Shown one piece after another: positions 3,075 to 63,514 of a stretch of 64,000 bases of DNA. Below the pieces are notes generated by a model. That model ran no database searches and was not told the DNA's origin. It saw only the letters and a program-made list of their open reading frames with translations. The stretch is from a virus. The position numbers and the translations under genes were made by a program. Numbering within the stretch: position 1 is the first letter of the stretch; the number at the start of each line of letters is the position of its first letter. The DNA lies in the IMG/VR virus record IMGVR_UViG_3300042731_006431, positions 1 through 64,000 of that record; one strand, 5' to 3'.

Positions 3075-4022
3075 ATGAAAACATTAGAGTTATCTGAACA
3101 TTTAGAAAGATCGAAACTAATCATTGAACCTGATAAAAGAATAGAGGAAAAAGCAACCATTGAAGAGCCAAAAATTTATGGTTATAAATCGGATGAGATA
3201 ATTGAGTATGAAAACAAAATTAAAACAGAAAATAAAAAAATAAAAATAGAAAACGCTTTATTAACCCGAAAAGAACCGTATTTATTTAAACCTCATCTAT
3301 TAAATAAATCTTATTGTGCTTTATATAAAGAAATAATAGATATTTTAGAATTAAACCACATACGATATACAGTCATAACAAGAGAAGAATATCAAAATAT
3401 TTTTAATAAATGTGTTGTGTATCCAAAAAGTGAGATTGAAGGAATTTTTAAAGTTAAACTGCCCGACGAGATAACTGGCTTAAAGTTGCCACTATGGATG
3501 ACTTACTCTATTTATAGTAATTTCTGGAGTGACAAAAAGCCCTATGTATTAGATATAATTCCTAAAACAAATTATTTAAAAACAGTAATATATAATTATT
3601 ATACCAGTGAAACAACTTCATTTAAGAACTTTACCTCAGACCGTTACACCGTGTGGGATTATCCAGAAGAGTTATATACAGACGAATTACAATATAATGA
3701 TTTAGGTTGCAAACCAGGTAATAACAATAAAAAATTATCTTTTTATATCAACCCAGAAACAATACCAATAGTGCCTAAACGGCTAAATCATATAATAGAA
3801 TTAATACCAGACTACAGAAAAAGAGGAATTCACATAGGGTTTATGCCTGGTTATAAAACAGAACTGAATTCTTTTAGAGAGCCACAGACACTCGAATTTA
3901 TTGATGACCCATTTATTTATTTTGAAAGTGTTGAGAAGTTTAGTGCAAGCGACGACCCTATTATAGTTTTTGGATGGTGGAATAAGAGCGGGTCAAGTTT
4001 AGATATATACAATAATGAATAG
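3075..4022 (+). CDS. Large unknown protein, paralog of the 54671 gene
   Basis: 315 residues with GGAGGAG upstream. It shares several long blocks with the gene at 54671-55579: the start (M-x-TLELS), a central block around IRYTVITREEYQNIFNK, KLPLWMT, VPIVPKRLNHIIELIPD, HIGFMPGY, and the end DDPIIVFGWWNKS. The two are clear paralogs 51 kb apart. It is soluble with a Lys/Glu-rich linker at residues 30-70 and no membrane segment. No known catalytic motif is visible. Conservation concentrates in the C-terminal two thirds, which suggests one folded domain after a variable N-terminal tail. Confidence 0.85.
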   Translation: MKTLELSEHLERSKLIIEPDKRIEEKATIEEPKIYGYKSDEIIEYENKIKTENKKIKIENALLTRKEPYLFKPHLLNKSYCALYKEIIDILELNHIRYTVITREEYQNIFNKCVVYPKSEIEGIFKVKLPDEITGLKLPLWMTYSIYSNFWSDKKPYVLDIIPKTNYLKTVIYNYYTSETTSFKNFTSDRYTVWDYPEELYTDELQYNDLGCKPGNNNKKLSFYINPETIPIVPKRLNHIIELIPDYRKRGIHIGFMPGYKTELNSFREPQTLEFIDDPFIYFESVEKFSASDDPIIVFGWWNKSGSSLDIYNNE

Positions 4023-10661: not shown

Positions 10662-11069
10662 ATGAAAGAAAATTTAAGGTGTTTGCAAGGTATTTATACT
10701 ACATATTCATGGTCATCAACTTTTTTAAAAATAGACAAAAAGAACATTGAAAAAGATGGATATTATAGATTTGTTTGCGATATCAACGATATTACTTTTA
10801 CTGATGATGAAGAGTATATATTAGTGTTATATACAGATGATGGTAAAGATGAAATAATAAGAAAAAAAATAAAAGCATCTGATCTATTTGAATATATTGA
10901 GTATTGTTATCGTGGTACTCAATCGATTATAACGTGGCTAAATAGGGAATCGATAATAGATAATATATCATTTGGGATAATTATAGATGAGGAATCACTT
11001 GGTTCAATTGAATGCTCTGTTAAGATAGATAGGGTTGATGTACAAACTATATTAGATTATGAGGTGTAA
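10662..11069 (+). CDS. Second copy of the head decoration-like protein
   Basis: 135 residues, clearly similar to the protein encoded right after the major capsid gene (17067-17471). Shared blocks: DGYYRFVCDINDI / DGFYRFVVDITDL, YILVLYT / YTLTVYT, the ASDLF / AADLF block, YRGTQSIITWLN / YRGQATITRWIN, and SIECSVKI / SITCEVGI. The structural copy is neutral; this copy is Lys/Asp/Glu-rich and diverged. It lies among membrane proteins and not in the head operon. It may be an alternative head-surface protein or a repurposed copy; both are inference. Confidence 0.8.
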   Translation: MKENLRCLQGIYTTYSWSSTFLKIDKKNIEKDGYYRFVCDINDITFTDDEEYILVLYTDDGKDEIIRKKIKASDLFEYIEYCYRGTQSIITWLNRESIIDNISFGIIIDEESLGSIECSVKIDRVDVQTILDYEV

Positions 11070-12832: not shown

Positions 12833-13306
12833 ATGACAAATGATGAGCTTGCCAAAAAAAATATAAAACTTCCTGAAATAATTGTGAACAAATGCTTTAG
12901 CACTTACCACGACAAGGACGAACTCCTTTCTCTTGGTTATGATGAACTTTATCAAGCCATTTTAAAACATGACAGAAACCGCCAAAATACTTTTACCTCA
13001 TATGCTTACCGGTATATTTGGGGTAAAATGATTAACTACATTAAAAAATCGACTAAACAATACGAATATCAATATATAATTTCGTATATAGAGTTTTTAG
13101 AAATTTCAAAGCCTGAACACTTAGATATTTTATATGAAATTAAAGAATACCAAAAAAATAACCCATCTATATATCAACAGCGAGTCATCGATTTATATCT
13201 ACAAGGATATAGAGCGGTTGAAATTGCTGATAAATTAGGTTTAAAAAGAAGAGTAATATACAACCACCTAAGTAACTTCATAGCTGCTATCGAAGCAACA
13301 CTCTAA
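12833..13306 (+). CDS. Sigma-70-family-like factor
   Basis: 157 residues. Residues 30-75 resemble sigma region 2: DELLSLGYDELYQAI, then TFTSYAYRYIWGKMINYIKK. Residues 117-150 form a region-4-like helix-turn-helix: QRVIDLYLQGYRAVEIADKLGLKRR. No region 1.1 or 3, as in small phage sigma factors. A second, diverged member is at 47568. The gene sits last in the TerL-portal island, and a distinct promoter box begins 43 bases after its stop, in front of the structural operon. It may therefore redirect host RNA polymerase to phage genes; that link is inference. GAGGAG is 9 bases before the ATG region. Confidence 0.75.
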   Translation: MTNDELAKKNIKLPEIIVNKCFSTYHDKDELLSLGYDELYQAILKHDRNRQNTFTSYAYRYIWGKMINYIKKSTKQYEYQYIISYIEFLEISKPEHLDILYEIKEYQKNNPSIYQQRVIDLYLQGYRAVEIADKLGLKRRVIYNHLSNFIAAIEATL

Positions 13307-13475: not shown

Positions 13476-14921
13476 ATGAATTTGAGTGTATTCGAAAAAG
13501 AACGTCCAAATTTAAAATCATTAATTGCTGAATGGAATTTCCAACTTGATAGTTATGTTGGCGGTCGTAAATATTTAGCAAATACAAATTATCTTCACCG
13601 ACACCCTCTTGAATACGATGAGGAATACGCTAATCGTTTGTCAAGAACAACATACAGTAACAAAAACAAAAAGTACATTGATAAAACAGTCAATAGTGTA
13701 TACTCAAAAAAAATAACAAGAACCCTTCTTGAATCATCGCTGCCTTTTTTTAGATTCCAGGATTTCAATGGGAATGAATTAGAAATAAATTCTTTTTTTA
13801 ATTTTATATCTAAACTTAGATTAGCATTGGGTGAAGTGTATATATATTACAATCCACCTCAAACAGAAGGCAAAACCAATGCAGAAACTAAATATTCAAA
13901 AATTGATGTCTCTCCAATCTTGCCACAAGTGATAAAATATGTCGAAACTTATCAAGGTGAAATTATAGAGTTAACTATGACAGTTGACCAAACTATTTTA
14001 CTTGATGAAAAAGAAATTGCTATTGATCAAATATATTACAATAAAAATGTTATCACTTACCATTTTAAAGAAAAGAAATTTAACGGCAAAAACGAACTAT
14101 CTACACCTAATAACTTGGGTCAAGTTCCTTTTATTCAGTATACATTAGATGATAACTTTGATGGAGTAAGTGATTCGTACACAATTGATGTATCAAGATT
14201 ATCCAATGAAGCTCACAATATACGTTCCTGGATTAATCAAATCCTTTTCGATAATATGTATCCAACAATGAATATGCCAATGAATGAAAGTATGATTGGC
14301 ATTCTTGAAACACAATATGGAACAACAAAGAAAAACGGGATTGATATTGTTGATTTCCGTAAACGTAGAGTACAGCCCCATGATTCAGGTAATTCAATAA
14401 GTTATTTAGTTAATGATTTAAATAATATTGATAAACTTTTAGCCTATGAAGACAAACTTGAAACAGAAATAACAGAAGCTGTTTCCATGAGGCTTAAACA
14501 AATCGTGCAGCAAAGCGGCGTATCAAAGCAATATGACGTACAAGATGAAATTCAAGTATTGACATTTTTTAGCCAGGAAAAATTCAAAACAGCTGAAGAG
14601 AAGTTTTGGAACACAGTTTTAAGCTTAATTGGTAAAGAAAAATTAGACTATACGATTAATTATCCAGATCAAACAGCATTTGATTTAATAGATAGGACAC
14701 AACGGCTTGATAATTTAGTACTCATAAGGGATACAATAGAGTCACCGAAGGCAAAAAAAGCAATAGATAAAATTATTGTGAAAGATTATTTAAGTAATGA
14801 TATTTCAGAAGATGAAATAAACATTATAAATAAAGAAATTGATGATGGAGACGTTGTTTCCAACACAAATGATTCTATATATAATGAATCATTAAATATT
14901 AACGACGAGGAAGTTATTTAA
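13476..14921 (+). CDS. Portal protein
   Basis: Forms the dodecameric DNA gate at one capsid vertex. 481 residues, right for portals of the SPP1 gp6/HK97-like size class. Placed directly before scaffold and capsid genes. Visible pattern: N-terminal mixed region with YVGGRKYLANTNYL and HRHPLEYDEEYANRLSRT, then a beta-rich wing, then long helices with NEAHNIRSWINQILFDNMYP (stem/clip), and a C-terminal helical, acidic crown (NKEIDDGD). These are typical of portal proteins, but the assignment rests mainly on size and gene order. Expression probably depends on the promoter and leader RNA upstream. Confidence 0.85.
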   Translation: MNLSVFEKERPNLKSLIAEWNFQLDSYVGGRKYLANTNYLHRHPLEYDEEYANRLSRTTYSNKNKKYIDKTVNSVYSKKITRTLLESSLPFFRFQDFNGNELEINSFFNFISKLRLALGEVYIYYNPPQTEGKTNAETKYSKIDVSPILPQVIKYVETYQGEIIELTMTVDQTILLDEKEIAIDQIYYNKNVITYHFKEKKFNGKNELSTPNNLGQVPFIQYTLDDNFDGVSDSYTIDVSRLSNEAHNIRSWINQILFDNMYPTMNMPMNESMIGILETQYGTTKKNGIDIVDFRKRRVQPHDSGNSISYLVNDLNNIDKLLAYEDKLETEITEAVSMRLKQIVQQSGVSKQYDVQDEIQVLTFFSQEKFKTAEEKFWNTVLSLIGKEKLDYTINYPDQTAFDLIDRTQRLDNLVLIRDTIESPKAKKAIDKIIVKDYLSNDISEDEINIINKEIDDGDVVSNTNDSIYNESLNINDEEVI

Positions 14922-15435: not shown

Positions 15436-16137
15436 ATGAATGAAGAAACTTCGGGTGATTCCGGCATCGATCAAACAAAACAAGCGGGTGATTCCGTTAT
15501 AGATCAAACAAAACAGTCGTCTAAGGACGTTAAAACAACAGATCAAGAAGGCGTTGACCTTCAAAAATTGCTGGATGATCCAGCAAATAAACAAATATTT
15601 GATTTAGCCAGACAGAATCTAAAAGCTGAATTTGATCGTAAATTAGATAAAGAAAATAAAAAGCTACAAGATACGTTTGAATTGCAACTAGCTAAAGCGG
15701 TTGAGGGTAAATTAGACGAGTTAAAGACTGAATCTAAAACAGAAATAGACTTAAAAACTGATCATATTAGGACATTAGAAGGTACTATTTCAGATTTAGA
15801 AACTAAGCTTAACGCTCAAATAAAAATAAACCACGCTGCTATTATAAGACAAGCAATCTTAGAGCATTATACAACTGGGTTAGTAGAAGATAATCAATCT
15901 ATTCGTGAGGATCTTGTGAATGTATTATCTCCTCTTTTTGAAGTAGATGATGATGACAAACCGAGGTTAATTTTAGACAAAGCAATAGAAAAGCATGCTG
16001 ACGAATTTAGAAAACAACGGAGCTATTTCTATAATTCCGATATTAAAAATGGTAACCCAGTAAATCCACAACAGAAACAATTTACACCAAAACCAAGTTT
16101 AGAGGAAGCAGCTAAATCAATCATTAAAGGATTCTAA
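15436..16137 (+). CDS. Capsid scaffolding protein
   Basis: 233 residues directly before the major capsid gene. Composition is that of a scaffold: disordered Gly/Ser/Asp/Gln start with a near repeat (DSGIDQTKQAG / DSVIDQTKQSS), long charged coiled coil at residues 45-135 (LDKENKKLQDTFELQLAKAV), and a Pro/Gln/Lys-rich end (NPQQKQFTPKP) plus a short helix that probably contacts capsid protein. No protease domain is present, so scaffold removal would be by exit or by another protease. Homology is not claimed; context and build carry the call. Confidence 0.8.
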   Translation: MNEETSGDSGIDQTKQAGDSVIDQTKQSSKDVKTTDQEGVDLQKLLDDPANKQIFDLARQNLKAEFDRKLDKENKKLQDTFELQLAKAVEGKLDELKTESKTEIDLKTDHIRTLEGTISDLETKLNAQIKINHAAIIRQAILEHYTTGLVEDNQSIREDLVNVLSPLFEVDDDDKPRLILDKAIEKHADEFRKQRSYFYNSDIKNGNPVNPQQKQFTPKPSLEEAAKSIIKGF

Positions 16138-16139
16138 TT

Positions 16140-17054
16140 ATGGCAGAAAGCATATTAGATTATCATAATACAAATTACGCTGAATCGGTTCCGCTTGTAG
16201 AGGAATTTATAACAGGGCAACCGATTTTAAATATTGTTCCAGCGGAAACAAACATAATTGATCACGTAGCTGTGTTTAGTCGTGATGAAGGCCTTCAAGG
16301 TGATTCCGGGCGTGTCGTTAACAACACAACAATCACAGCAGCTGAAGACGACGATTTTTCTATCATCAAAAAAGAATTAATCATACGTGACAGAAAATTT
16401 TTCTTAGATAACAAAATTTTAAATTCTACCAATGGAAACAACGTTAAGAATTTAAAATTGAAAAAAGCATTGCAGGCTTTGGGAGCGAGTGCAAATTATC
16501 GTTTTATTAATGGGACAGAGGCTGCTGATGATTTTAGAGGCTTGAATGTTATTGCTCAAGATAATAGCATGACAAGTTCATATGGCACAGCAGTATCAAC
16601 AGCTGCAACCGCTCAAACATGTTTAGATTATTTAGAAGACGCTATGAGCTCTATTTTATATAGGGCAACTCATTTACTTATCGGTTCTGATGGATTTAAA
16701 GTACTTCGAAAAATAGCAACCTATAGTCAACAAGTCACTGTTAGTGTACAAGATAGAGTTGTTGGGAAAGCTATTGGTGAGATAATTCTAGGTGCAAAGA
16801 CATTGCCAATCGTTTGGGCTGGTAAAGTTGGTTATGGAAGTACTACTATTAACAATGAGGTAATCCCATTGTCTACAACCACAACAGATTTTTACCTAGT
16901 AGATTTCAGCGAAAACGGCGTTACTTTTGCTTTAGAATTAGCACCAACAAAAGCAATTGAAGGTGAAACAGGTATTTCTTATGTATTGGAACAATATCAA
17001 ATGTTGTGTGATAAATCCGCTTATTGCGTATATAAACACACACAAACAGTATAA
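16140..17054 (+). CDS. Major capsid protein
   Basis: Forms the head shell. 304 residues, two bases after the scaffold gene and before decoration and connector genes. Visible regions consistent with an HK97-type fold: N-arm and E-loop (residues 40-80, TNIIDHVAVFSRDEG to EDDDFSIIKKE), spine-like region with IIRDRKFFLDNKI, P-domain helix with NYRFINGTEAADDFRGLN, A-domain (ATHLLIGSDGFKVLRKIA) and a beta end FYLVDFSENGVTFALELAP. A diverged second copy is encoded at 60182. Its AAA-, Thr-rich composition and strong start suggest high expression. Confidence 0.88.
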   Translation: MAESILDYHNTNYAESVPLVEEFITGQPILNIVPAETNIIDHVAVFSRDEGLQGDSGRVVNNTTITAAEDDDFSIIKKELIIRDRKFFLDNKILNSTNGNNVKNLKLKKALQALGASANYRFINGTEAADDFRGLNVIAQDNSMTSSYGTAVSTAATAQTCLDYLEDAMSSILYRATHLLIGSDGFKVLRKIATYSQQVTVSVQDRVVGKAIGEIILGAKTLPIVWAGKVGYGSTTINNEVIPLSTTTTDFYLVDFSENGVTFALELAPTKAIEGETGISYVLEQYQMLCDKSAYCVYKHTQTV

Positions 17055-17066
17055 GGAGTTATAAAA

Positions 17067-17471
17067 ATGGCTAAAGAACAAAACAAGTACGCATTTGATT
17101 ATAGCTTTTATACTGCAAGTGCGACATATGTAGCAACAAACAACGCAGCTTTAACAGTGTTAAAAGCAAAATTCTTACATGATGGCTTTTACAGGTTTGT
17201 TGTCGACATAACCGATTTAGATTATACAGGAAGTGAGACGTATACTCTAACAGTGTATACAAATTCTGGTAGTACTACATTATGTACTCTACCAATATTA
17301 GCAGCTGATCTTTTCAACCCATCAACTGGAAATTACAGAGGTCAAGCAACTATTACACGGTGGATAAACGTTGCCAACATCACAACTGATATTCGTATGG
17401 GTTTAACATTGGCGAATGGTTCAGGAACAGCTTCTATTACATGTGAAGTTGGGATTGTGGACGGTAACTAA
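17067..17471 (+). CDS. Head decoration or stabilisation-like protein
   Basis: 134 residues directly after the capsid gene, with AAGGAG upstream. Beta-rich and low in charge: DGFYRFVVDITDLDYTGSE, YTLTVYTNSG, RGQATITRWI, ASITCEVGIV. Size, position and composition fit a decoration (cement) protein, but no fold motif proves it. A Lys/Asp-rich homolog is encoded outside the operon at 10662. The pairing of a capsid gene and this gene, both with second copies elsewhere, is unusual. Confidence 0.68.
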   Translation: MAKEQNKYAFDYSFYTASATYVATNNAALTVLKAKFLHDGFYRFVVDITDLDYTGSETYTLTVYTNSGSTTLCTLPILAADLFNPSTGNYRGQATITRWINVANITTDIRMGLTLANGSGTASITCEVGIVDGN

Positions 17472-30971: not shown

Positions 30972-31756
30972 TTAATTACCAATTAAGTTTTTAAGTTTTT
31001 CAACACAATAATCATAATCTGTTTGTTGGATAGCTCCAGTTTTGAGTAGGCGTTCGCCAATTTTGTATAAACCTAAAGTTGTAAATTTGGCATAACTATT
31101 AGTTTTTGTTTCATTTTTAGAGTTTTTATAATTTGCACTTGCAGTTAAAAACCATTTCTTACCTTGCTTTCCATAAGTAGATTCAGGCATTCTGTTATGA
31201 GTAATATAATTGTGATCAATTAAGAAATCAATAAGTTCAGTTTGCCTAATACCTAAATAGTGAGATGCATCACGAATAGTTATTAGTGTCGTACTATTAA
31301 TAAACTCATCAACAAATTCAACTTTCGGTTGTTGTTCTTGGATGGTTATTTGTAATCTTTCCTTTTCCTCTTCCGCTTCAATAACCATCAAAGCAAGTTC
31401 TTTTCGTGAAAGTTGCTTTATTGAATAAGTACCGGTTTTTTCTAATTGTGGTAATACTTCATGAGTTAGCCATCGTTTAAACTGTTTAGCTTCTGGTTTA
31501 TAGCTTCTGGTTTATAGCTTCTGAAAATTAATTGATATATGCCTGGTTTGTTAACTAACCACATATCTCTGGTTTGACCTGATGCGTAAACTTTCCGCAT
31601 CAGCTTTTCATCGTTATCGAGTTTTTCTAAAGCATCGTTTGTGCGTGTTAAATCCAAGATATCACAAACATCCTTAGCAACAAACCAAGGTTCATTGTCA
31701 ATACTGATAGTCCTAACAGGGCTACTTTCATATTGAAATACTGTTAAATCTTTCAT
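30972..31756 (-). pseudogene. BRO-N / KilAC antirepressor split by a 14-bp duplication
   Basis: One gene in two frames. The N-terminal part (start ATG at 31756, GGAG upstream) has a BRO-N domain: WFVAKDVCDILDL, LDNDEKLMRKV and IYQLIFRSYKPEA. After PEA the frame runs into a stop in 12 codons. The C-terminal part, from about 31463 to 30972, continues as KQFKRWLTHEVLPQLEKTG then a helical linker and a KilAC/phage antirepressor domain (LITIRDASHYLGIRQTEL, YITHN, KKWFLTA). Removing one of two adjacent identical 14-mers at 31487-31514 restores PEAKQFKRWLTHEV, the family's usual sequence. So it is either mutated, switchable or a sequencing error. Confidence 0.88.
31487..31523 (-). repeat. 14-bp tandem duplication (frameshift)
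   Basis: TAGCTTCTGGTTTA occurs at 31487-31500 and again at 31501-31514, followed by a partial copy TAGCTTCTG (31515-31523). Fourteen is not a multiple of three, so each copy gained or lost shifts the antirepressor frame. Confidence 0.93.
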
Positions 31757-31830
31757 GTTAAACTCCAATTACGTATTATTTTAAATATAACAAACAAAAC
31801 CAAAACCGTGCAAACTTTTTTTAAATTTTT

Positions 31831-47567: not shown

Positions 47568-48059
47568 ATGAACTATTATGATATTGCTAAAATAGTGGTT
47601 GATAAACACTTTAATACTTATAAAGATAAGCAAGAATTGTATTTAGTGGCCAACGAAGCTGTTTTTGTTGCATTAAAAAAATATGATAATAGAAAAAGCT
47701 GTAAATTAACATCTTATATAAATATATATGTGAGATGGATGATTTTAAATTATTTAAAAAAAGAACAAAAACAGGTTGTAGCTTTCAAAAGAGCAAAAAA
47801 AATATTAAATGTGTGCCATTATGATAAGTATGAATTTATTGATAAAAGTATTTTAGATTATGAAATTCCTAAATTACTCCCTAAACTACCACCTCGAAAA
47901 CGTGAAATATTAGAAATGTTATATAATGGTTTATCAATTGATGAGATAAAACAAATATTAGGTGTTAAAAGGCATGCTGTAACGCAACATATATTACAAA
48001 TAAAAAATAATTTAGAAAAATACAAGAAAAATGATAAAAAAAGTGTACAAATTGATTAA
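47568..48059 (+). CDS. Sigma-70-family-like factor 2
   Basis: 163 residues. Region-2-like part: TYKDKQELYLVANEAVFVAL, then LTSYINIYVRWMILNYLKK; region-4-like HTH: RKREILEMLYNGLSIDEIKQ with GVKRHAVTQHI. Same build and size as the gene at 12833, with only partial identity, so an old duplication or two acquisitions. A CACAAA-N14-GTTATAT promoter box starts inside its last codons, as with the first sigma-like gene. Would direct RNA polymerase to some phage promoters; inferred. Confidence 0.75.
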   Translation: MNYYDIAKIVVDKHFNTYKDKQELYLVANEAVFVALKKYDNRKSCKLTSYINIYVRWMILNYLKKEQKQVVAFKRAKKILNVCHYDKYEFIDKSILDYEIPKLLPKLPPRKREILEMLYNGLSIDEIKQILGVKRHAVTQHILQIKNNLEKYKKNDKKSVQID

Positions 48060-50990: not shown

Positions 50991-51587
50991 ATGAAATTTA
51001 AAAAGAGCGATAGAATTATATTAGTAGGGAACGGACCAAGTACTTTAAAAAGAAAAAAAGGCCCTGTTATAAATAATCATGAGATAATAATTAGATTAAA
51101 TGATTGGGTTACTGATGGATTTGAACAACATGTCGGTAGTAAAACTACCCATTGGTTTGTTGGACCTTCTAAATGGTCGAGAATCAAGGGTAGAGATATA
51201 AGCAAACTAAAAGGATTTTGTATGCTACCATATAAACATTATAAGAGCGAATCTTTTATTAGGGAACATCTTAGGAAGTGTTTAGAACTTGATCCTGATG
51301 ATTTTGATTTTTTAGACAAAGAAGATTCTCGAAAAATGACCGAAATTGCTACAAATTTTGGATGTGATTTAATTCCTTCAAGTGGATTAAACGCTATTCT
51401 GTATTTAACATGCATATTAAGATTGCCTATAACTATTATTGGGTTTGACTGTTATCAAGATAAAGATGATTTTACCCATTATTACGGTGATAATAATCGA
51501 GATCTAACTTTTAACTTGCACAACTGGAAAATAGAAAAGGATATAATAACAGCTCTAAACAAGTTAAATTTTATAAGAATTTTATAA
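50991..51587 (+). CDS. Glycosyltransferase family 29-like (sialyltransferase-like)
   Basis: 198 residues right after the previous stop. ILVGNGPSTLKRKKG at the N-terminus, then EIIIRLND and EQHVGSKTTHWF, the sialyl-motif L-like block; SSGLNAILYLTC and IIGFDCYQ with HYYGD and HNW in the C-terminal block, as in bacterial GT29-type and phage relatives. May add a sugar to a phage or host surface molecule or to a modified base; the acceptor is unknown. Confidence 0.72.
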   Translation: MKFKKSDRIILVGNGPSTLKRKKGPVINNHEIIIRLNDWVTDGFEQHVGSKTTHWFVGPSKWSRIKGRDISKLKGFCMLPYKHYKSESFIREHLRKCLELDPDDFDFLDKEDSRKMTEIATNFGCDLIPSSGLNAILYLTCILRLPITIIGFDCYQDKDDFTHYYGDNNRDLTFNLHNWKIEKDIITALNKLNFIRIL

Positions 51588-54670: not shown

Positions 54671-55579
54671 ATGGAAACATTAGAATTATCAAAATATATT
54701 ATAGAGTCAAAATTGCCTATAGATGAATCTACAACAAAAGACGAATCTATAACAAAAATAGAATTGCCAGTGATATATGGTAGAAAATCACCAGAATTAA
54801 GAGAATACGAGAAAGAAAATATTTCTAAATATATTTCAGAACATAAAGATTTACATAAATCTAATTTATTTAATTTTAGTGATTTATGTCACCCAAAAGA
54901 TTTAGATATTAAGAATTTTAACGAAATAAAATTAATTTTTGATGAAAAAAATATAAAATATACATGTATAAGTAGAATTGAATATAGAAATATATTTAAT
55001 AAATATATTCTTTTTCCAAAGAAACTAATTGAGGATGAATTTAGAGTAAAAATTCCTGATTATTTATATGGTATAAAATTGCCTATGTGGATGACGTTCA
55101 GTTTAAATCATTATATATGGGAATCAGATAAAAATATTAATGTTGTTTATTTAACATCGCATTGTAGCGGTATTACATCAAAAAATACACCATTATTTTT
55201 TAGTTGTATTAAAGGGGTAAATCTTAAACCAATAAATAGTTTATGGGATTATGAATATCTTAAAAAAAATGATTTGTTTTACAATCAACTCAATTGCCGA
55301 CATAGAAGTAAATTACATCACACATTAGATATTGATATAAAAATTGACTCTGTACCAGTGGTGCCCAAAAGATTCAATCCTATTATAGATTTAATACCTG
55401 ATAAGAGCAGAATCAATATAGCTTTTATGCCAAGTTATGATGTTAAAACGCATGATGACCCTTTTATTTATTATGATCCAATTGGGAAAACAAAATTTGA
55501 TGATATTGATATACCTATAATAGTTTTTGGCATGTGGAACAAAAGCGATGCAACTTTAAATACTTATTTAAACGAATAA
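54671..55579 (+). CDS. Large unknown protein, paralog of the 3075 gene
   Basis: 302 residues, AAGGAG upstream. Aligns with the gene at 3075 along most of its length: METLELSKYI, VIYGRKSPELREYE, IKYTCISRIEYRNIFNK, KLPMWMTFS, VPVVPKRFNPIIDLIPD, IAFMPSY, PIIVFGMWNKS. The N-terminal spacer (residues 18-35) has near repeats (DESTTKDESITK). Position before the replication initiator suggests it may be needed early. Function unknown. Confidence 0.85.
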   Translation: METLELSKYIIESKLPIDESTTKDESITKIELPVIYGRKSPELREYEKENISKYISEHKDLHKSNLFNFSDLCHPKDLDIKNFNEIKLIFDEKNIKYTCISRIEYRNIFNKYILFPKKLIEDEFRVKIPDYLYGIKLPMWMTFSLNHYIWESDKNINVVYLTSHCSGITSKNTPLFFSCIKGVNLKPINSLWDYEYLKKNDLFYNQLNCRHRSKLHHTLDIDIKIDSVPVVPKRFNPIIDLIPDKSRINIAFMPSYDVKTHDDPFIYYDPIGKTKFDDIDIPIIVFGMWNKSDATLNTYLNE

Positions 55580-55593
55580 AATAAAGGTTATAT

Positions 55594-56439
55594 ATGAACT
55601 TAAAACAAAAACCAATTGTAAATTTAGAGCGTAAATTTGATAAAAACACACTCAAATTTAAAGTGCTAAATGAATATTCAAACAAAATTTCAGGTGATGC
55701 GTTTAAGCTATATTACATACTGATAGATTATTATAATGATGCTTATGGTTATGCTTATCCATCATATAGTATCCTACTTGATAAGACTGGTATTAAATCA
55801 GTTAACACGTTAAAAAAGAAGCTAAATGAATTAGTTGAAATTGGGCTTATAAATATCAGTACTGGTACTAAGAATAATCAATATACGTTCAACAACGTAT
55901 TTGAGTTAAAAGAAGTAAAAATTGAAAAATCTGAAAAAAATGTATTAAATTCTGATGATGAGAAATCAAAATTTGATAGTAATCAATCAAAAAATGATAG
56001 GCCTATATCAAAATTTGATAGTCCTTATAATATAGAACTTACTAGTAAATTTACTAGTAATATAACTAATACTAAGAGCAATAATAATACCAAGGTGATA
56101 TCTATGTACGATAAATTTTTAGTTTGGTCAGCTACTAAAGGATGTAATCAACGTAGTATTAATACTTTACTACTTAAATTCCCTAAGACTAAAGAGTGGT
56201 TAGATGCTTATATGACTTATATAGACTCATTAACTGATATAGATGATTTAAGAACATATATTGGCGTTGGGATTAAAAAAAATTGGAATATGAATAAACG
56301 TATTGAAAAGCCAAAAGAAGAACCTAAAACTCCTCAATGGCAGTTAGACCGTATTAAAAACAGACGATTAAATACTTATTCGAAGAGATTAGGCATTACA
56401 GTAGCTGAATACATTGAAAGGTATGGAGATGAAGTCTAA
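55594..56439 (+). CDS. Replication initiator-like protein (winged helix)
   Basis: 281 residues. N-terminal winged helix: ISGDAFKLYYILIDYYN, YAYPSYSILLDKTGI, SVNTLKKKLNELVEIGL with wing TGTKNNQYTFNN. A Ser/Asn-rich linker (residues 110-165), then a helical C-terminal part with YDKFLVWSATKGC and a basic tail. This is the shape of phage DnaD/replisome organiser proteins that load DnaB, and the DnaB gene follows, overlapping by 11 bases. An origin may lie in the linker-coding DNA, but I saw no clear iterons. Confidence 0.8.
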   Translation: MNLKQKPIVNLERKFDKNTLKFKVLNEYSNKISGDAFKLYYILIDYYNDAYGYAYPSYSILLDKTGIKSVNTLKKKLNELVEIGLINISTGTKNNQYTFNNVFELKEVKIEKSEKNVLNSDDEKSKFDSNQSKNDRPISKFDSPYNIELTSKFTSNITNTKSNNNTKVISMYDKFLVWSATKGCNQRSINTLLLKFPKTKEWLDAYMTYIDSLTDIDDLRTYIGVGIKKNWNMNKRIEKPKEEPKTPQWQLDRIKNRRLNTYSKRLGITVAEYIERYGDEV

Positions 56440-57781
56440 AATACCGCATAATTACGAAGCTGAAGAGGCTGTTTTATCAGCTATACTTATACACCCGGAT
56501 TCAATTTTGAATTGTATATCTAAGATTGATTCAAGCGATTTTTACAGCTCAAAGAATAAAATTATTTATGATGCTTTGTTTGAGCTATATAAGCAAGACG
56601 TACAGGCAGATTATATACTATTGACAGATTACCTAACACGAAAGGGTAAGCTTGAAACTGTTGGTGAAGAATATATACTTGATGTAGTGCGTAATATCCC
56701 TACTGTTCATAACATCGATAGCTATATAATGGCTGTAAAAGATAGTTCTAATCGTAGAAAATTGCAGAACATATCTAATAAGCTAACTGAAAGACTAACA
56801 ACAGAGGAAGCAACACGGAATATTATCAATGATATGCAAAAAGTTATCTTTGATCTTACAGAATCAGATTCTGATGATGACCCGGTTTCAATTGCTGACA
56901 GTATTGTTGAAACGTTTGAAAAGATTAAAAAGTCTCATGGTTACAACAAAGAATACGACGGCATTTTAACAGGTATTTCTAATATCGATGACTTTACAGG
57001 CGGGTTTAAAAATGGTGAAGTTACCATATTGGCCGCTCGTCCGAGTATGGGTAAAACTTCGCTGGCTTCTAATATTGCATGTAATGCAGCTAAGGAAGGA
57101 AAGAACGTTTTATTTTGCTCTAAAGAAATGTCAACTCATGTAATTGGACAAAGATTACTTGCTGAAATGTCAGATATAGAAAGCTACAAGATTAGAACTG
57201 CTCATCTGACTACTCAAGAATTAAAAGTGCTTGAAACAACATTGCCAGAATTTGAGAGTATTAGGCTATTGAAATTCTATGATAGTTCATCTATGAGTGC
57301 TGTGAATATTAGGTCTAAAGCTCGCAAAATGAAAATGAGGGGTGGTTTGGATTTGATTATAATTGATTATTTACAGCTTTTAGAACCAATTAGCACAAAG
57401 CACGATTCAAAAAACATCGAAGTTTCTGAAAGCTCAAAATACATAAAAAATATAGCCCGTGAACTTGATATACCTGTTATACTATTATCTCAATTATCAA
57501 GAAGTATTGAAGCTCGTCAAAACAAGGAACCACTATTATCAGATTTACGTGATTCAGGTTCTATTGAGCAAGATGCTGATATTGTTGCTTTCTTACATCG
57601 TCCTAAATACCAAACGGTGGATGATGAAAAAGACTTATACCAAGAAACTCATTTCATTGTACGAAAAAATCGTAATGGTAGCATAGGGACAGTTAAATTG
57701 AGATTTGATAAGAACATAACAAAATTTGTGAATTGGACTGATGGCGATGATTATTTAAGTGGTGGTGATTATTATAAATAA
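56429..57781 (+). CDS. dnaB: Replicative DNA helicase, DnaB family
   Basis: Unwinds DNA at the phage fork. 450 residues from ATG 56429 (AAAGG spacing fits; an upstream Met lies too close). N-terminal helical domain starts IPHNYEAEEAVLSAIL; Walker A RPSMGKTS (about 202-209), KEMSTHVIGQRLL, Walker B LIIIDYLQLL (about 309-318), SQLSRSIEARQNKEP and DLRDSGSIEQDAD with IVAFLHRP are standard DnaB blocks. No primase domain, so host primase is probably used. Confidence 0.97.
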   Translation: MKSKIPHNYEAEEAVLSAILIHPDSILNCISKIDSSDFYSSKNKIIYDALFELYKQDVQADYILLTDYLTRKGKLETVGEEYILDVVRNIPTVHNIDSYIMAVKDSSNRRKLQNISNKLTERLTTEEATRNIINDMQKVIFDLTESDSDDDPVSIADSIVETFEKIKKSHGYNKEYDGILTGISNIDDFTGGFKNGEVTILAARPSMGKTSLASNIACNAAKEGKNVLFCSKEMSTHVIGQRLLAEMSDIESYKIRTAHLTTQELKVLETTLPEFESIRLLKFYDSSSMSAVNIRSKARKMKMRGGLDLIIIDYLQLLEPISTKHDSKNIEVSESSKYIKNIARELDIPVILLSQLSRSIEARQNKEPLLSDLRDSGSIEQDADIVAFLHRPKYQTVDDEKDLYQETHFIVRKNRNGSIGTVKLRFDKNITKFVNWTDGDDYLSGGDYYK

Positions 57782-59480: not shown

Positions 59481-59520
59481 GTGAGTGTGGTTTACTGAGA
59501 GAACTGCACTCACCTTTTTT
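59481..59520 (+). terminator. Rho-independent terminator
   Basis: GTGAGTGTGGTT (59481-59492) pairs with AACTGCACTCAC (59502-59513), 12 pairs with two G-U, then CTTTTTT. Separates the remnant from the following transcript. Confidence 0.85.
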
Positions 59521-59536
59521 AAATTAAGGAGTAATT

Positions 59537-59709
59537 ATGGAAAAGTGTAGTAAATGTTTATGGGAAAACGCTAAAAATGAGAATCCAGCTATAATTTCTG
59601 GGTTCATGAATTAGAAGTAAAAATTGTTGAAAATGGGAAAATTGCAACTTTCACATTATGCGATTCATGTTTTAGTGAATTTAAGGCAGATTGTGAATTG
59701 GATATCTAA
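59537..59709 (+). pseudogene. Zinc-ribbon gene with a frameshift
   Basis: ATG 59537 (AAGGAG upstream) reads MEKCSKCLWENAKNENPA and stops after about 25 codons. A second frame, shifted by -1, continues with WVHELEVKIVENGKIATF, TLCDSCFSEF and ends at TAA 59707. The first CxxC (CSKC) and second CxxC (CDSC) together make a four-cysteine ribbon, so one gene was split by an indel between 59573 and 59612. No slippery heptamer was found there. Confidence 0.75.
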
Positions 59710-60180
59710 ATGCAGATCTATTTTACAGACAACAACCCTAAAAAATGCGCTCAAGTTATAGACAATTTACGCGTATCAAAACTAATTTGTGAGACAGCTC
59801 AATGCTTAAACTATGCAGCTATGAGACATGGTTATATAGGTACAGTTGGCTTAAGTCAAAATCAAAAATCAGCTTATCTTAATAATCCTATAGTTAAGTG
59901 GTTGTCAGAATCAAAGCAGAATTATAAATGGGGATTGGTTCATTTAAAAGCACTATTGCAGGTTAAAAGCAAACGTTTCGGTACTGCTCATTTGTTTGTT
60001 AAGCATGTTAACAGTTTATCAAAGCTTATAAAATACATTCCTAATGGTGAATTAACAGAGTTTCCAAATGTTACTAAGAATTATAAGCATATTAAACCCA
60101 CTACTGAAGCTTATCAATTGCATTTGCTTGAAAAGTGGGAAGAGTCTAAAAGAAAGGTAAGTTGGAACGAAAGAGGTTAA
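59710..60180 (+). CDS. Pyrimidine-dimer glycosylase-family-like protein
   Basis: 156 residues, just after the previous frame's stop. MQIYFTDNNPKKCAQVIDNLRVSKLICETAQCLNYAA has the conserved pattern D-x-[ND]P-x-K-C-A-x-x-[LI]D-x-x-R-x-x-K and ET-A-Q of the Pyr_excise (T4 DenV-like) superfamily; NNPIVKWLSESKQNYKW and RFGTAH are also shared. Many phage members are of unknown activity, so DNA repair is a likely but untested role. Confidence 0.65.
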   Translation: MQIYFTDNNPKKCAQVIDNLRVSKLICETAQCLNYAAMRHGYIGTVGLSQNQKSAYLNNPIVKWLSESKQNYKWGLVHLKALLQVKSKRFGTAHLFVKHVNSLSKLIKYIPNGELTEFPNVTKNYKHIKPTTEAYQLHLLEKWEESKRKVSWNERG

Positions 60181-60181
60181 T

Positions 60182-61018
60182 ATGACAATAACTGAATATT
60201 TAAACAGTTTACCCCTTTTAAAGGGTTTCAATACACTGCAAACTCCTATTTTAGATATTATGCATCATGAAACTAAAGTAAAAAATCACTGTTTTATAGG
60301 TAATGATAACCAAAAACTTATAATTAGAGATCGATCTTTTTTTGTTGATCAATTAGCATTTAAAGATCATGATGATTTTTTAAACCATTTAGAGTTAAGA
60401 AGTAAAGTTAATAATGAAATTTATGATAAGATGCTTGAAAAAGCATTATCAGTAATAAAAAGCTCTGCAAATAATCGTATTATTAACGGCAGACAGGCAC
60501 CTATTAATTTTAACGGCTTAAATACCATCACTGAATATAATTATATGTTTTTACCTCATCACCATAAATTAAAAAGTAAATATAATTTTAGAAAATTAAT
60601 TGACTATTTTGAAATTGCAATAAGGGCAATGAAATATTCTACTACACATTTAATAGTTGGCATTGAAGGTTATAAACTTTTAGAATCAATATCTCCCTAT
60701 TTCAAGGATATGAGGTTAAAAAACTTACAGCTTTCAAATAATGCAAATGATTTAGGAGATATTGAAATTTTAAATTCCAGAATTAATATTATTTTTGCCG
60801 GTTTTGATTATACGCATAATCAAGTTATAACAGTTAAAGATGATATGATAGATATGTATTTAGTTGATTTCTCAGAAAACGGGTTAACTTTTGCATTGGA
60901 AATATTCCCTATAATGAAAAAAAATGAGGGCACTGGAATAACTTATTTTCTCAAAACAGCTCAATGGCTATGTCAAAATTCTGAAAATTGCTGTTATAAA
61001 ATATCTCAGAGGGTATAA
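60182..61018 (+). CDS. Second, diverged major capsid protein homolog
   Basis: 278 residues, clear homolog of the capsid protein at 16140. Shared blocks in order: QTPILDIMHHET / GQPILNIVPAET, LIIRDRSFFVD / LIIRDRKFFLD, NNRIINGRQAPINFNGLN / NYRFINGTEAADDFRGLN, THLIVGIEGYKLLESI / THLLIGSDGFKVLRKI, YLVDFSENGLTFALEI / YLVDFSENGVTFALEL, GTGITYFLKTAQWLC / ETGISYVLEQYQMLC. About 30 residues equal to the E-loop side (before IIRDR) are missing. It is more Asn/Lys/Ile-rich than the structural copy. It is not next to scaffold or portal. Role unknown: minor capsid, interference or retained duplicate. Confidence 0.85.
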   Translation: MTITEYLNSLPLLKGFNTLQTPILDIMHHETKVKNHCFIGNDNQKLIIRDRSFFVDQLAFKDHDDFLNHLELRSKVNNEIYDKMLEKALSVIKSSANNRIINGRQAPINFNGLNTITEYNYMFLPHHHKLKSKYNFRKLIDYFEIAIRAMKYSTTHLIVGIEGYKLLESISPYFKDMRLKNLQLSNNANDLGDIEILNSRINIIFAGFDYTHNQVITVKDDMIDMYLVDFSENGLTFALEIFPIMKKNEGTGITYFLKTAQWLCQNSENCCYKISQRV

Positions 61019-61019
61019 A

Positions 61020-61358
61020 ATGAAAAAAATGTATGTAAGCGGCCCATATAGTGGCACACTAGATGAAATAAATCATAATATATCATTTGCCGAAATAGCA
61101 TCTGTTAAGTTGCTTAAATGTGGATGGTGTGTACTTACACCTCATAAAAACTACTCTAATTATGAAAAGTATGAGGAATATTTGGGGTTTGGTTATGAAT
61201 ATTGGCTTTATCTTGATCTTGAATTATTATCTTGTTGTGATGCTATTTTTATGCTTAAATCATATAAAGAAAGCAAAGGCGCTATGATAGAACTTGAAAA
61301 AGCTATAGAATTAGGTCTTGAAATTTACTATGAAAGCGAAGGATATCCATGTCCTTAA
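61020..61358 (+). CDS. Nucleoside 2-deoxyribosyltransferase-like (DUF4406) protein
   Basis: 112 residues. MKKMYVSGPYSGTLDEINHN start, CGWCVLTPHKN, YLDLELLSCCDAIFML, and SKGAMIELEKAIELGLEI follow the family pattern (G-P-Y-x-G, D-x-x-x-L-x-x-CDA, S-x-GA-x-x-E). Members exchange bases on deoxyribonucleosides or are of unknown role. Starts two bases after the capsid homolog stop. Confidence 0.8.
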   Translation: MKKMYVSGPYSGTLDEINHNISFAEIASVKLLKCGWCVLTPHKNYSNYEKYEEYLGFGYEYWLYLDLELLSCCDAIFMLKSYKESKGAMIELEKAIELGLEIYYESEGYPCP

Positions 61359-61735
61359 AACCAAGATCTAAATCAAGAATGGCTGTTGCTCAAGATAAAT
61401 ATTATAAAATAGCTACTATACTCGTATATAAAAAACATGGTAAAAAGTGTTTTTATTGTGGTGCTAAACCTGAGGGCTTGGATCATATCGTTAATCGATC
61501 GTTAAGTAATTATTTATATTCGTGTCCACAAAACCTTGTACCATGTTGTGGTAGGTGTAATTTAGATATGAAAATAAATCCTAAAAAGAAATTATCTATA
61601 ATAGAATCTAAAGGAATAGATTATAATTCACTGTTAGAACTTGATAAACAAGGATTACCTTTTGTTAAAAGTCATTCATGGGATGAGTGGTTTAATTTGA
61701 ATTGTGAGAAGTATAGAAAAGAGAATAGAATTTAA
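61349..61735 (+). CDS. HNH endonuclease
   Basis: 128 residues. CFYCG (Cys 34, 37), EGLDHIVNRS (DH motif, Asp 45-His 46), then NLVPCCGRCNLDM with Cys 66/67, Cys 70 and the Asn 71. A classic zinc-bound HNH fold. May act in packaging or as a selfish nuclease; it is far from terL. Overlaps the previous gene by 10 bases. Confidence 0.88.
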   Translation: MSLKPRSKSRMAVAQDKYYKIATILVYKKHGKKCFYCGAKPEGLDHIVNRSLSNYLYSCPQNLVPCCGRCNLDMKINPKKKLSIIESKGIDYNSLLELDKQGLPFVKSHSWDEWFNLNCEKYRKENRI

Positions 61736-61952: not shown

Positions 61953-62549
61953 ATGAGAACATTAAATATTACTGTAGGTGGAGCTTACGGTTCTGATAGG
62001 AAAAATAGTCGACCTTTTTACGATGCATTGATGGCAGCCTTCCCATATGATGATTTTATATACATAGAAAAATCTATGGATAGCCTTTTCGGTGATGGTG
62101 AAGATGAGCGAATTTCTGATATAAAGTTTAGTCTATTAGAAAACAAAGATACATATGATATAATAAATATTATAGGTAAGTCATACGGCGGGCCTCTAAT
62201 CTGTGAATTACTATCAGACGATGACTTTTTTAATAAGCTTAATAAAAAGATTAATCTAATTCTCATTGATCCAACCAACGCAAAATACCCCTGGTTCAAA
62301 CAGAAATATCATGGGCGAAGTACAATCACAGTTGACAATGAAAAAATAGAAAGCTCGATTTTATTCTATGAGGACGAGTCTGAAAATAAACACTTATTTA
62401 GAGCTTTTCTTGATTATCGTCATAGAAATGTAATCGTTAATGGTTATCAAGTTAGACAGGTGTTGATTCTTGGTGCAGATCATTTTTCTATTACACGAAA
62501 AAAAGAGTATATAGATCAGATTATTAATTATATTAAGGGGTTGAGATGA
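61953..62549 (+). CDS. Alpha/beta hydrolase-like enzyme
   Basis: ATG 61953 after GAGGTG is used; a longer frame starts in the previous gene. 198 residues: LNITVGGAYGSD start, nucleophile elbow GKSYGG (Ser), acidic site in LILIDPT, and catalytic-type His in LILGADHFSIT. Lipase/esterase-like fold with the triad in usual order. No signal peptide. It overlaps the radical SAM gene by four bases, so it may act in the same pathway. Confidence 0.72.
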   Translation: MRTLNITVGGAYGSDRKNSRPFYDALMAAFPYDDFIYIEKSMDSLFGDGEDERISDIKFSLLENKDTYDIINIIGKSYGGPLICELLSDDDFFNKLNKKINLILIDPTNAKYPWFKQKYHGRSTITVDNEKIESSILFYEDESENKHLFRAFLDYRHRNVIVNGYQVRQVLILGADHFSITRKKEYIDQIINYIKGLR

Positions 62550-63514
62550 GGGTTATAAAAAATATTGAGGTTCCTACTGGAAATATAATTATTGCAGAGG
62601 GACAAAAAGGAAAATTAGAATTCTTATCTATAGGCGACTACGGTAAAGATGTTAATATTAAAGCTAATTTTTTAGATTTAAACCGAGAACCACAACCAGT
62701 AAAACACACTAATTTATTATCTTTAGAAGAAAAATGGGTGATTACAATATCAACTCAGTATAGCTGCAAAATGGGTTGTACTTTTTGTGATGTGCCTAAA
62801 ATTAAAAAGCGTGGTGATATTAATGCAAGTCTAAATGATTTAAAAAATCAAATTAAATTGGGATTATTATTACATCCAGAAATAAAAAAGACCAAAAGGT
62901 TAAATGTTCATTTTGCGCGTATGGGAGAGCCATCTTTTAATGGAGAAAATGTTTTAGCGTGTTCACGTTGGTTGAAAAGTTGTATTGATCCTACTCATAA
63001 AGTACATCCAGTAGTTTCAACAATGCTTCCAAGACACAACAAAAATTTAAAATCGTTTTTGTGGAGTTGGGTAACTATTAAAAATAACTTGTATGATGGA
63101 AACGCAGGGTTGCAGCTAAGTATAAATACAACAGACGAACAGATTAGAAAACAAATTTTTAGAAATAACTCATTGAATTTAGAAGAGATTTCTAATGCTA
63201 TGAGAGGGTTAAAACCAGAAGGTCGTAAATTTACCTTAAATTTTCCTGTTTGTGATTGGCCAATAGATGGTAAGATATTATTGAAATACTTTGATCCTGA
63301 TGATTATATAATTAAATTAACACCAATGCATAAAACAAGTGCGGCGTTAAAAAATAATATAAAAACTGATGGTGATTATACTACATACTACCCATATCAA
63401 GAAATTGAGAAACATTTAATAGGTTGTGGTTATGATGTTTTGGTTTTTATTGCCTCTAAAGAAGAGGATGAGAGTAAAATAACATGCGGAAATGCTATAT
63501 TAAGTGAAATATAA
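62546..63514 (+). CDS. RlmN/Cfr-like radical SAM methyl-transfer enzyme
   Basis: 322 residues. [4Fe-4S] motif CKMGCTFC (Cys 74, 78, 81) in ISTQYSCKMGC, RMGEPSFNGENV like the GMGEP block of RlmN, LQLSINTTDEQIRKQIF, and at the end a CG-rich block ITCGNAIL that aligns with the methyl-carrying Cys of RlmN/Cfr. RlmN and Cfr methylate adenine in 23S rRNA or tRNA. A phage copy might alter ribosomes or modify another nucleic acid. Next to an alpha/beta hydrolase and a methyltransferase. Confidence 0.8.
   Translation: MRVIKNIEVPTGNIIIAEGQKGKLEFLSIGDYGKDVNIKANFLDLNREPQPVKHTNLLSLEEKWVITISTQYSCKMGCTFCDVPKIKKRGDINASLNDLKNQIKLGLLLHPEIKKTKRLNVHFARMGEPSFNGENVLACSRWLKSCIDPTHKVHPVVSTMLPRHNKNLKSFLWSWVTIKNNLYDGNAGLQLSINTTDEQIRKQIFRNNSLNLEEISNAMRGLKPEGRKFTLNFPVCDWPIDGKILLKYFDPDDYIIKLTPMHKTSAALKNNIKTDGDYTTYYPYQEIEKHLIGCGYDVLVFIASKEEDESKITCGNAILSEI

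Follow-up and report, generated by a model that had tools for sequence, protein, structure and literature searches.

A full-length paralogue of the major capsid protein without its E-loop, encoded among the replication genes of a phage

The phage genome described here encodes both a major capsid protein (MCP) and a second, diverged version of that protein from which the E-loop is absent. Both genes lie in the window, the 64,000-nucleotide stretch that we analysed, which is part of a 66,885-base IMG/VR virus record. The paralogue (P0001, 278 aa) is read from the plus strand at 60182–61018, in an open frame with an ATG, a stop and an SD-like AGAGG ribosome-binding site. The MCP itself (P0002, 304 aa, phrog_212 family) is read from the same strand at 16140–17054, and the 43 kb between the two are as given in a preliminary description of this DNA. 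That description had proposed the former as a second MCP homologue, and pairwise alignment bears this out over the full length of the proteins: they match end to end, with 98 of 296 positions identical (33%) and 157 of 296 positive (BLASTP, E 5e-47), and their Smith-Waterman score of 366 compares with a mean of 35 among shuffles (sd 5.6, max 64; z=59). The two conserved blocks that it had named, LIIRDR-x-FF and YLVDFSENG-x-TFALE, occur in order in both proteins in a MAFFT alignment, as do the further blocks SAN-x-R-x-ING, F-x-GLN, THL and TGI-x-Y-x-L. In the same alignment the paralogue contains 12 residues that the MCP lacks (FKDHDDFLNHLE, residues 60–71; 60359–60394, plus strand), inserted directly behind the post-E-loop strand. 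The pI of the paralogue is 7.7 where that of the MCP is 4.9. The pair is saturated as regards dN/dS, and an identity of 33% rules out a recent duplication or an assembly artefact as the source of the paralogue. These comparisons show that the gene arose long ago by duplication, either of the MCP gene of this phage or of that of a close relative now lost, and that it has stayed intact.

The product of 16140–17054 is assigned to the major head proteins of phrog_212 (E 3e-9), and as its gene also follows the portal gene (13476–14921, phrog_145) and a scaffold-like gene (15436–16137), it is the true MCP. A profile of its family matches solved HK97-fold MCPs, namely 3j4u of BPP-1 (E 4e-8), 3j40 (E 3e-7) and 8cjz (E 1e-8), and the phage's MCP belongs with these phrog_212 and BPP-1-like proteins. 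The match to 3j4u is colinear over residues 24–163 and then continues in swapped order. A swapped order has been published for the BPP-1 MCP, whose N-element (1–168) contains the E-loop and the spine helix (PMC3863775). The three solved matches all align in this BPP-1 swapped beta/alpha order, whereas the MCP family described here has the HK97 order. Since HK97-order phrog_212 MCPs (loci L056–L083) share detectable sequence with permuted BPP-1-type MCPs, the two topologies are bridged by a sequence profile.

Of the two proteins, the paralogue is the more distant from the family. It scores 3.2 bits against the family HMM versus 46.7 bits for the MCP, it has no match to the phrog_212 profile even at E 10, and searches of Pfam and PHROG returned no match and no new domain or motif. 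Compared with a family profile that includes the phage's own MCP, it is recovered by hhalign with 86% probability (E 4.7e-6, 173 columns). Homology to HK97-fold proteins is supported for the family as a whole, through the sequence profile; direct models of structure did not add to it, as AlphaFold2 predictions of both proteins from two-sequence alignments were too poor (mean pLDDT 37 and 33), and fold searches with these poor models gave no significant match.

The phrog_212 members that we compared carry an E-loop, whereas the paralogue has neither an E-loop nor a phrog_212 profile match. About 30 residues had been described as missing at this position. The alignment puts the number at 28, corresponding to MCP residues 51–78 (16290–16373, plus strand), with the deletion point between Q44 and K45 of the paralogue (60313–60314, plus strand). 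To place this gap we aligned 24 phrog_212 prophage MCPs with both window proteins, the family MCPs having been drawn from prophages of sampled genomes (8 of 398 Bacillota and 64 of 395 Bacteroidota), and in this comparison the gap falls on the E-loop. The span from H42 to L80, in MCP numbering, measures 33–41 residues in the reliable family MCPs, 37 in the MCP of this phage, and 9 in the paralogue; a weak family match (L063) with 23 residues in the span was left out of the reliable set. The deleted stretch follows the N-arm and precedes the spine helix, which is the site of the E-loop, its exact boundaries being those placed by the alignment. The E-loop of HK97-like shells links subunits that belong to adjacent capsomers and makes contacts at local threefold sites (PMC12749128, PMC3863775). 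The paralogue can be regarded as a natural experiment on the purpose of this element. To our knowledge, capsid paralogues are found in few phages, and we know of none in which precisely the E-loop has been removed and the rest of the fold spared.

Outside the E-loop, seven of the eight near-invariant family residues are kept in the paralogue (L46, I48, D56, G103, G112, G192 and Y226), the sole change being that of MCP E240 to Q214, and the columns that are identical in both copies are the more conserved columns of the family (p 0.018). The frame is free of stops over 278 codons, for which the chance is about 4e-12 under random composition, and the other five frames over the gene contain 18–44 stops. 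Taken together, the post-E-loop strand and the spine are 50% identical to the MCP, the C-terminal beta element 47% and the A-domain 29%; over residues 145–162, 0 of 18 residues are identical. With most outgroups a relative-rate test tends to give the paralogue the higher rate, and with few of them the difference is significant. The preliminary description had read the intactness of the gene as a sign of selection, and we agree: because the near-invariant residues are kept, the frame has no stop and the gene is tightly packed into an operon with 1-nt gaps, we conclude that selection has kept the paralogue, and its fold core has been under selection.

The paralogue lies outside the head operon, i.e. 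not after the portal and scaffold genes. It is separated by 1 nt from an upstream gene for a phrog_624 DNA-binding protein with a weak Pyr_excise (pyrimidine-dimer glycosylase) match (59710–60180), and by 1 nt from a downstream DUF4406 (nucleoside 2-deoxyribosyltransferase-like) gene (61020–61358), which is in turn overlapped by the operon's HNH endonuclease-like gene (61349–61735), all on the plus strand. This operon belongs to the genome's replication half and lies between DnaB (56414–57781) and a putative SSB-like gene beyond the window, so named from its sequence. Just 5' of the operon is a terminator-like hairpin with a T run (59481–59513, plus strand), a kind of site whose count is not above chance. 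A zinc-ribbon-like ORF, likewise just 5' of the operon (C-x2-C ... C-x2-C, about 59537–59709), is broken by a frameshift that is either real or an assembly error, and an antirepressor on the minus strand (30972–31768) is split into a Bro-N ORF (31466–31768) and a KilAC ORF (30972–31391). The paralogue is on the same record as the terminase, portal, MCP, a tape-measure-like gene and DnaB, and is not satellite-encoded. A chimera of two phages is not favoured, because the terminase, portal, DnaB and SSB-like genes were each encountered a single time and the record has just one head operon; what does recur is limited to scattered paralogue pairs.

The virion proteins of this phage use cheap residues, and when the 62 genes are ranked by amino-acid cost, a weak proxy, the MCP is 4th and the paralogue 28th. 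Other virion genes in this ranking are the scaffold-like (1), tail-tube-like (2) and tape-measure-like (3) genes, the gene after the MCP (6) and the portal (11), and some head-tail genes also stand low in it (the 17474 gene is 23rd and the 19777 gene 30th). The composition of the paralogue is unlike that of the phage's abundant virion proteins. A comparable case is the gene directly 3' of the MCP (17067–17471, plus strand), possibly, to judge by its position only, a shell cement protein. Its diverged second copy lies between the terminase and the portal (10662–11069, plus strand; 35% identity over 119 columns) and has lost the cheap virion composition just as the MCP paralogue has, moving from rank 6 to rank 25. 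We rejected the idea of a second head module, as the copies at 10662 and 60182 are not neighbours and follow no fixed gene order.

We propose, with a probability of roughly 0.4, that the paralogue is a low-dose, early-made partner of the MCP that modifies or blocks shell assembly. Its place in an early operon, its lost E-loop and an amino-acid composition unlike that of virion proteins speak less for an ordinary capsomer than for a protein that modifies or blocks assembly, and every function that we discuss for it is one that we infer. Hypothetically, the protein is made in modest amounts early or in mid-infection, a timing that we derive from gene neighbourhood only, and acts on the MCP. It could enter or bind capsomers yet leave the E-loop contacts incomplete, because the P-domain side is the best kept part of the protein, the A-domain is less so, and the clamping arm is gone. 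The result would be a subunit-level modifier that delays, limits or redirects the phage's own shell assembly; alternatively, the paralogue may poison shell assembly in a satellite or in a related phage that infects the same cell. The more specific proposal, that a dedicated, early, E-loop-less version of the phage's own capsid protein co-assembles with the MCP and acts as a chain breaker, whether to time the phage's own shell assembly or to poison the shells of related phages and satellites, we consider rather unlikely as worded. If true, it would describe a naturally evolved dominant-negative capsid protein that is encoded by the phage itself. More broadly, the paralogue bears on whether phages use a version of their shell protein to brake assembly or to fight competitors, as satellites do by means of Ccm.

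Among capsid-protein homologues that change assembly, the closest precedent to have been tested is Ccm of SaPIbov5. It has 24% identity to the capsid protein, alters shell shape and forms no shells alone; it makes pentamers, occupies the pentons and keeps its E-loop (PMC8569155). Ccm and the paralogue are alike in being diverged capsid-protein homologues encoded outside the head cluster, at 24% and 33% identity respectively. However, Ccm is satellite-encoded, has a delta domain and an E-loop, and has a demonstrated effect, whereas the paralogue is phage-encoded, has its E-loop deleted, and is known from sequence.

The alternative that survives best, although we consider it unlikely, is a minor shell protein at the pentons or in a portal-proximal ring, in the manner of T4 gp24 and perhaps paired with the copy at 10662–11069. 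T4 gp24 forms vertices and is thought to have been derived from gp23 by duplication, at about 20% identity (PMC9958956), and the pentamers of Ccm are a similar precedent (PMC8569155). Both gp24 and the protein described here are paralogues of the MCP of the genome that encodes them, and both the duplication of the post-MCP gene and the better retention of the P-domain regions are consistent with a place in the shell. However, gp24 is an essential virion protein, whereas the paralogue is encoded 43 kb from the MCP and its head operon, in a replication operon, and lacks the E-loop with its local-threefold contacts (PMC12749128, PMC3863775). Its amino-acid cost is also unlike that of virion proteins, even the low-copy portal. 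Furthermore, a search of the flanks of 21 prophage phrog_212 MCPs, reaching up to 20 kb in either direction, found no second copy; this test detects each MCP itself, would detect a pair as similar as the window pair, and misses remoter copies. T4 gp24 adjoins gene 23 and retains its E-loop. Since Ccm and gp24 both retain their E-loops, these precedents are silent on the effect of E-loop loss. The early operon, the low-dose composition and a P-domain without an E-loop together lead us to favour an assembly modifier or blocker over a vertex protein.

Duplication is common in this genome, which holds several other divergent and unrelated paralogue pairs, and the function of the paralogue therefore need not concern the shell. 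A neofunctionalised duplicate could, for example, work together with the DNA-metabolism proteins encoded next to it, which would fit its operon with the phrog_624/Pyr_excise-like, DUF4406 and HNH genes, its greater distance from the family, and its shift in pI. We regard such a role as improbable, since the protein is best conserved where it forms the capsid core fold, and it has gained no recognizable domain or motif.

Still less probable is a role as an anti-defence decoy, in which an MCP mimic made early would occupy a capsid-recognising host sensor of the CapRel type without triggering it. CapRel-SJ46 is switched on directly by the MCP, to which several further defence systems have been linked, according to the parts of the CapRel study drawn on here (PMC9712102). 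Free MCP is thus a signal read by hosts, and for this reason a phage would have cause to make an MCP mimic. The early-operon position would suit such a protein, as would a fold core that is kept while other regions have diverged. However, an early mimic could set off the sensor sooner, those same parts of the study describe no mimic or decoy protein (PMC9712102), and any relation to the paralogue is speculative. As for the nucleic-acid or antigen decoy raised in the preliminary description, nothing that we found lends it particular support. Finally, a functionless relic that is open by chance is highly improbable: although decay does occur in this genome, where the zinc-ribbon-like ORF and the split antirepressor look broken, the paralogue has diverged to 33% identity without a stop or frameshift, with invariant positions spared and a snug place in its operon.

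The E-loop-less paralogue is so far known from a single orphan genome. Searches for relatives of the paralogue or the MCP among phages, viral contigs, genome contigs and 793 sampled Bacteroidota and Bacillota genomes found none, and the pattern matches in viral contigs that we examined were all false. Those of the searches that used two-sequence profiles are weak negatives, because they have no positive control outside this genome. Relatives of the terminase (at most 35% identity over long matches) have no detectable homologous MCP.

Six further paralogue pairs are present in the genome. A full-length pair at opposite ends of the record (3075–4022 and 54671–55579) has 38% identity over 326 columns and no Pfam or PHROG match. 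Two small sigma-factor-like paralogues, one before the head operon (12833–13306) and one in the early region (47568–48059), have 28% identity and are possibly a late/early switch. The product of 50991–51587 has a Glyco_transf_29 (sialyltransferase-like) domain, and a weakly similar protein is encoded beyond the window (L003:518-1273). A radical-SAM-like protein (62546–63514, phrog_24834) has 51% identity to one in Bacteroides phage Versailles; its only three genome-contig relatives, from Bacteroides, Muribaculaceae and Anaerovorax, provide the sole hint of a host group.
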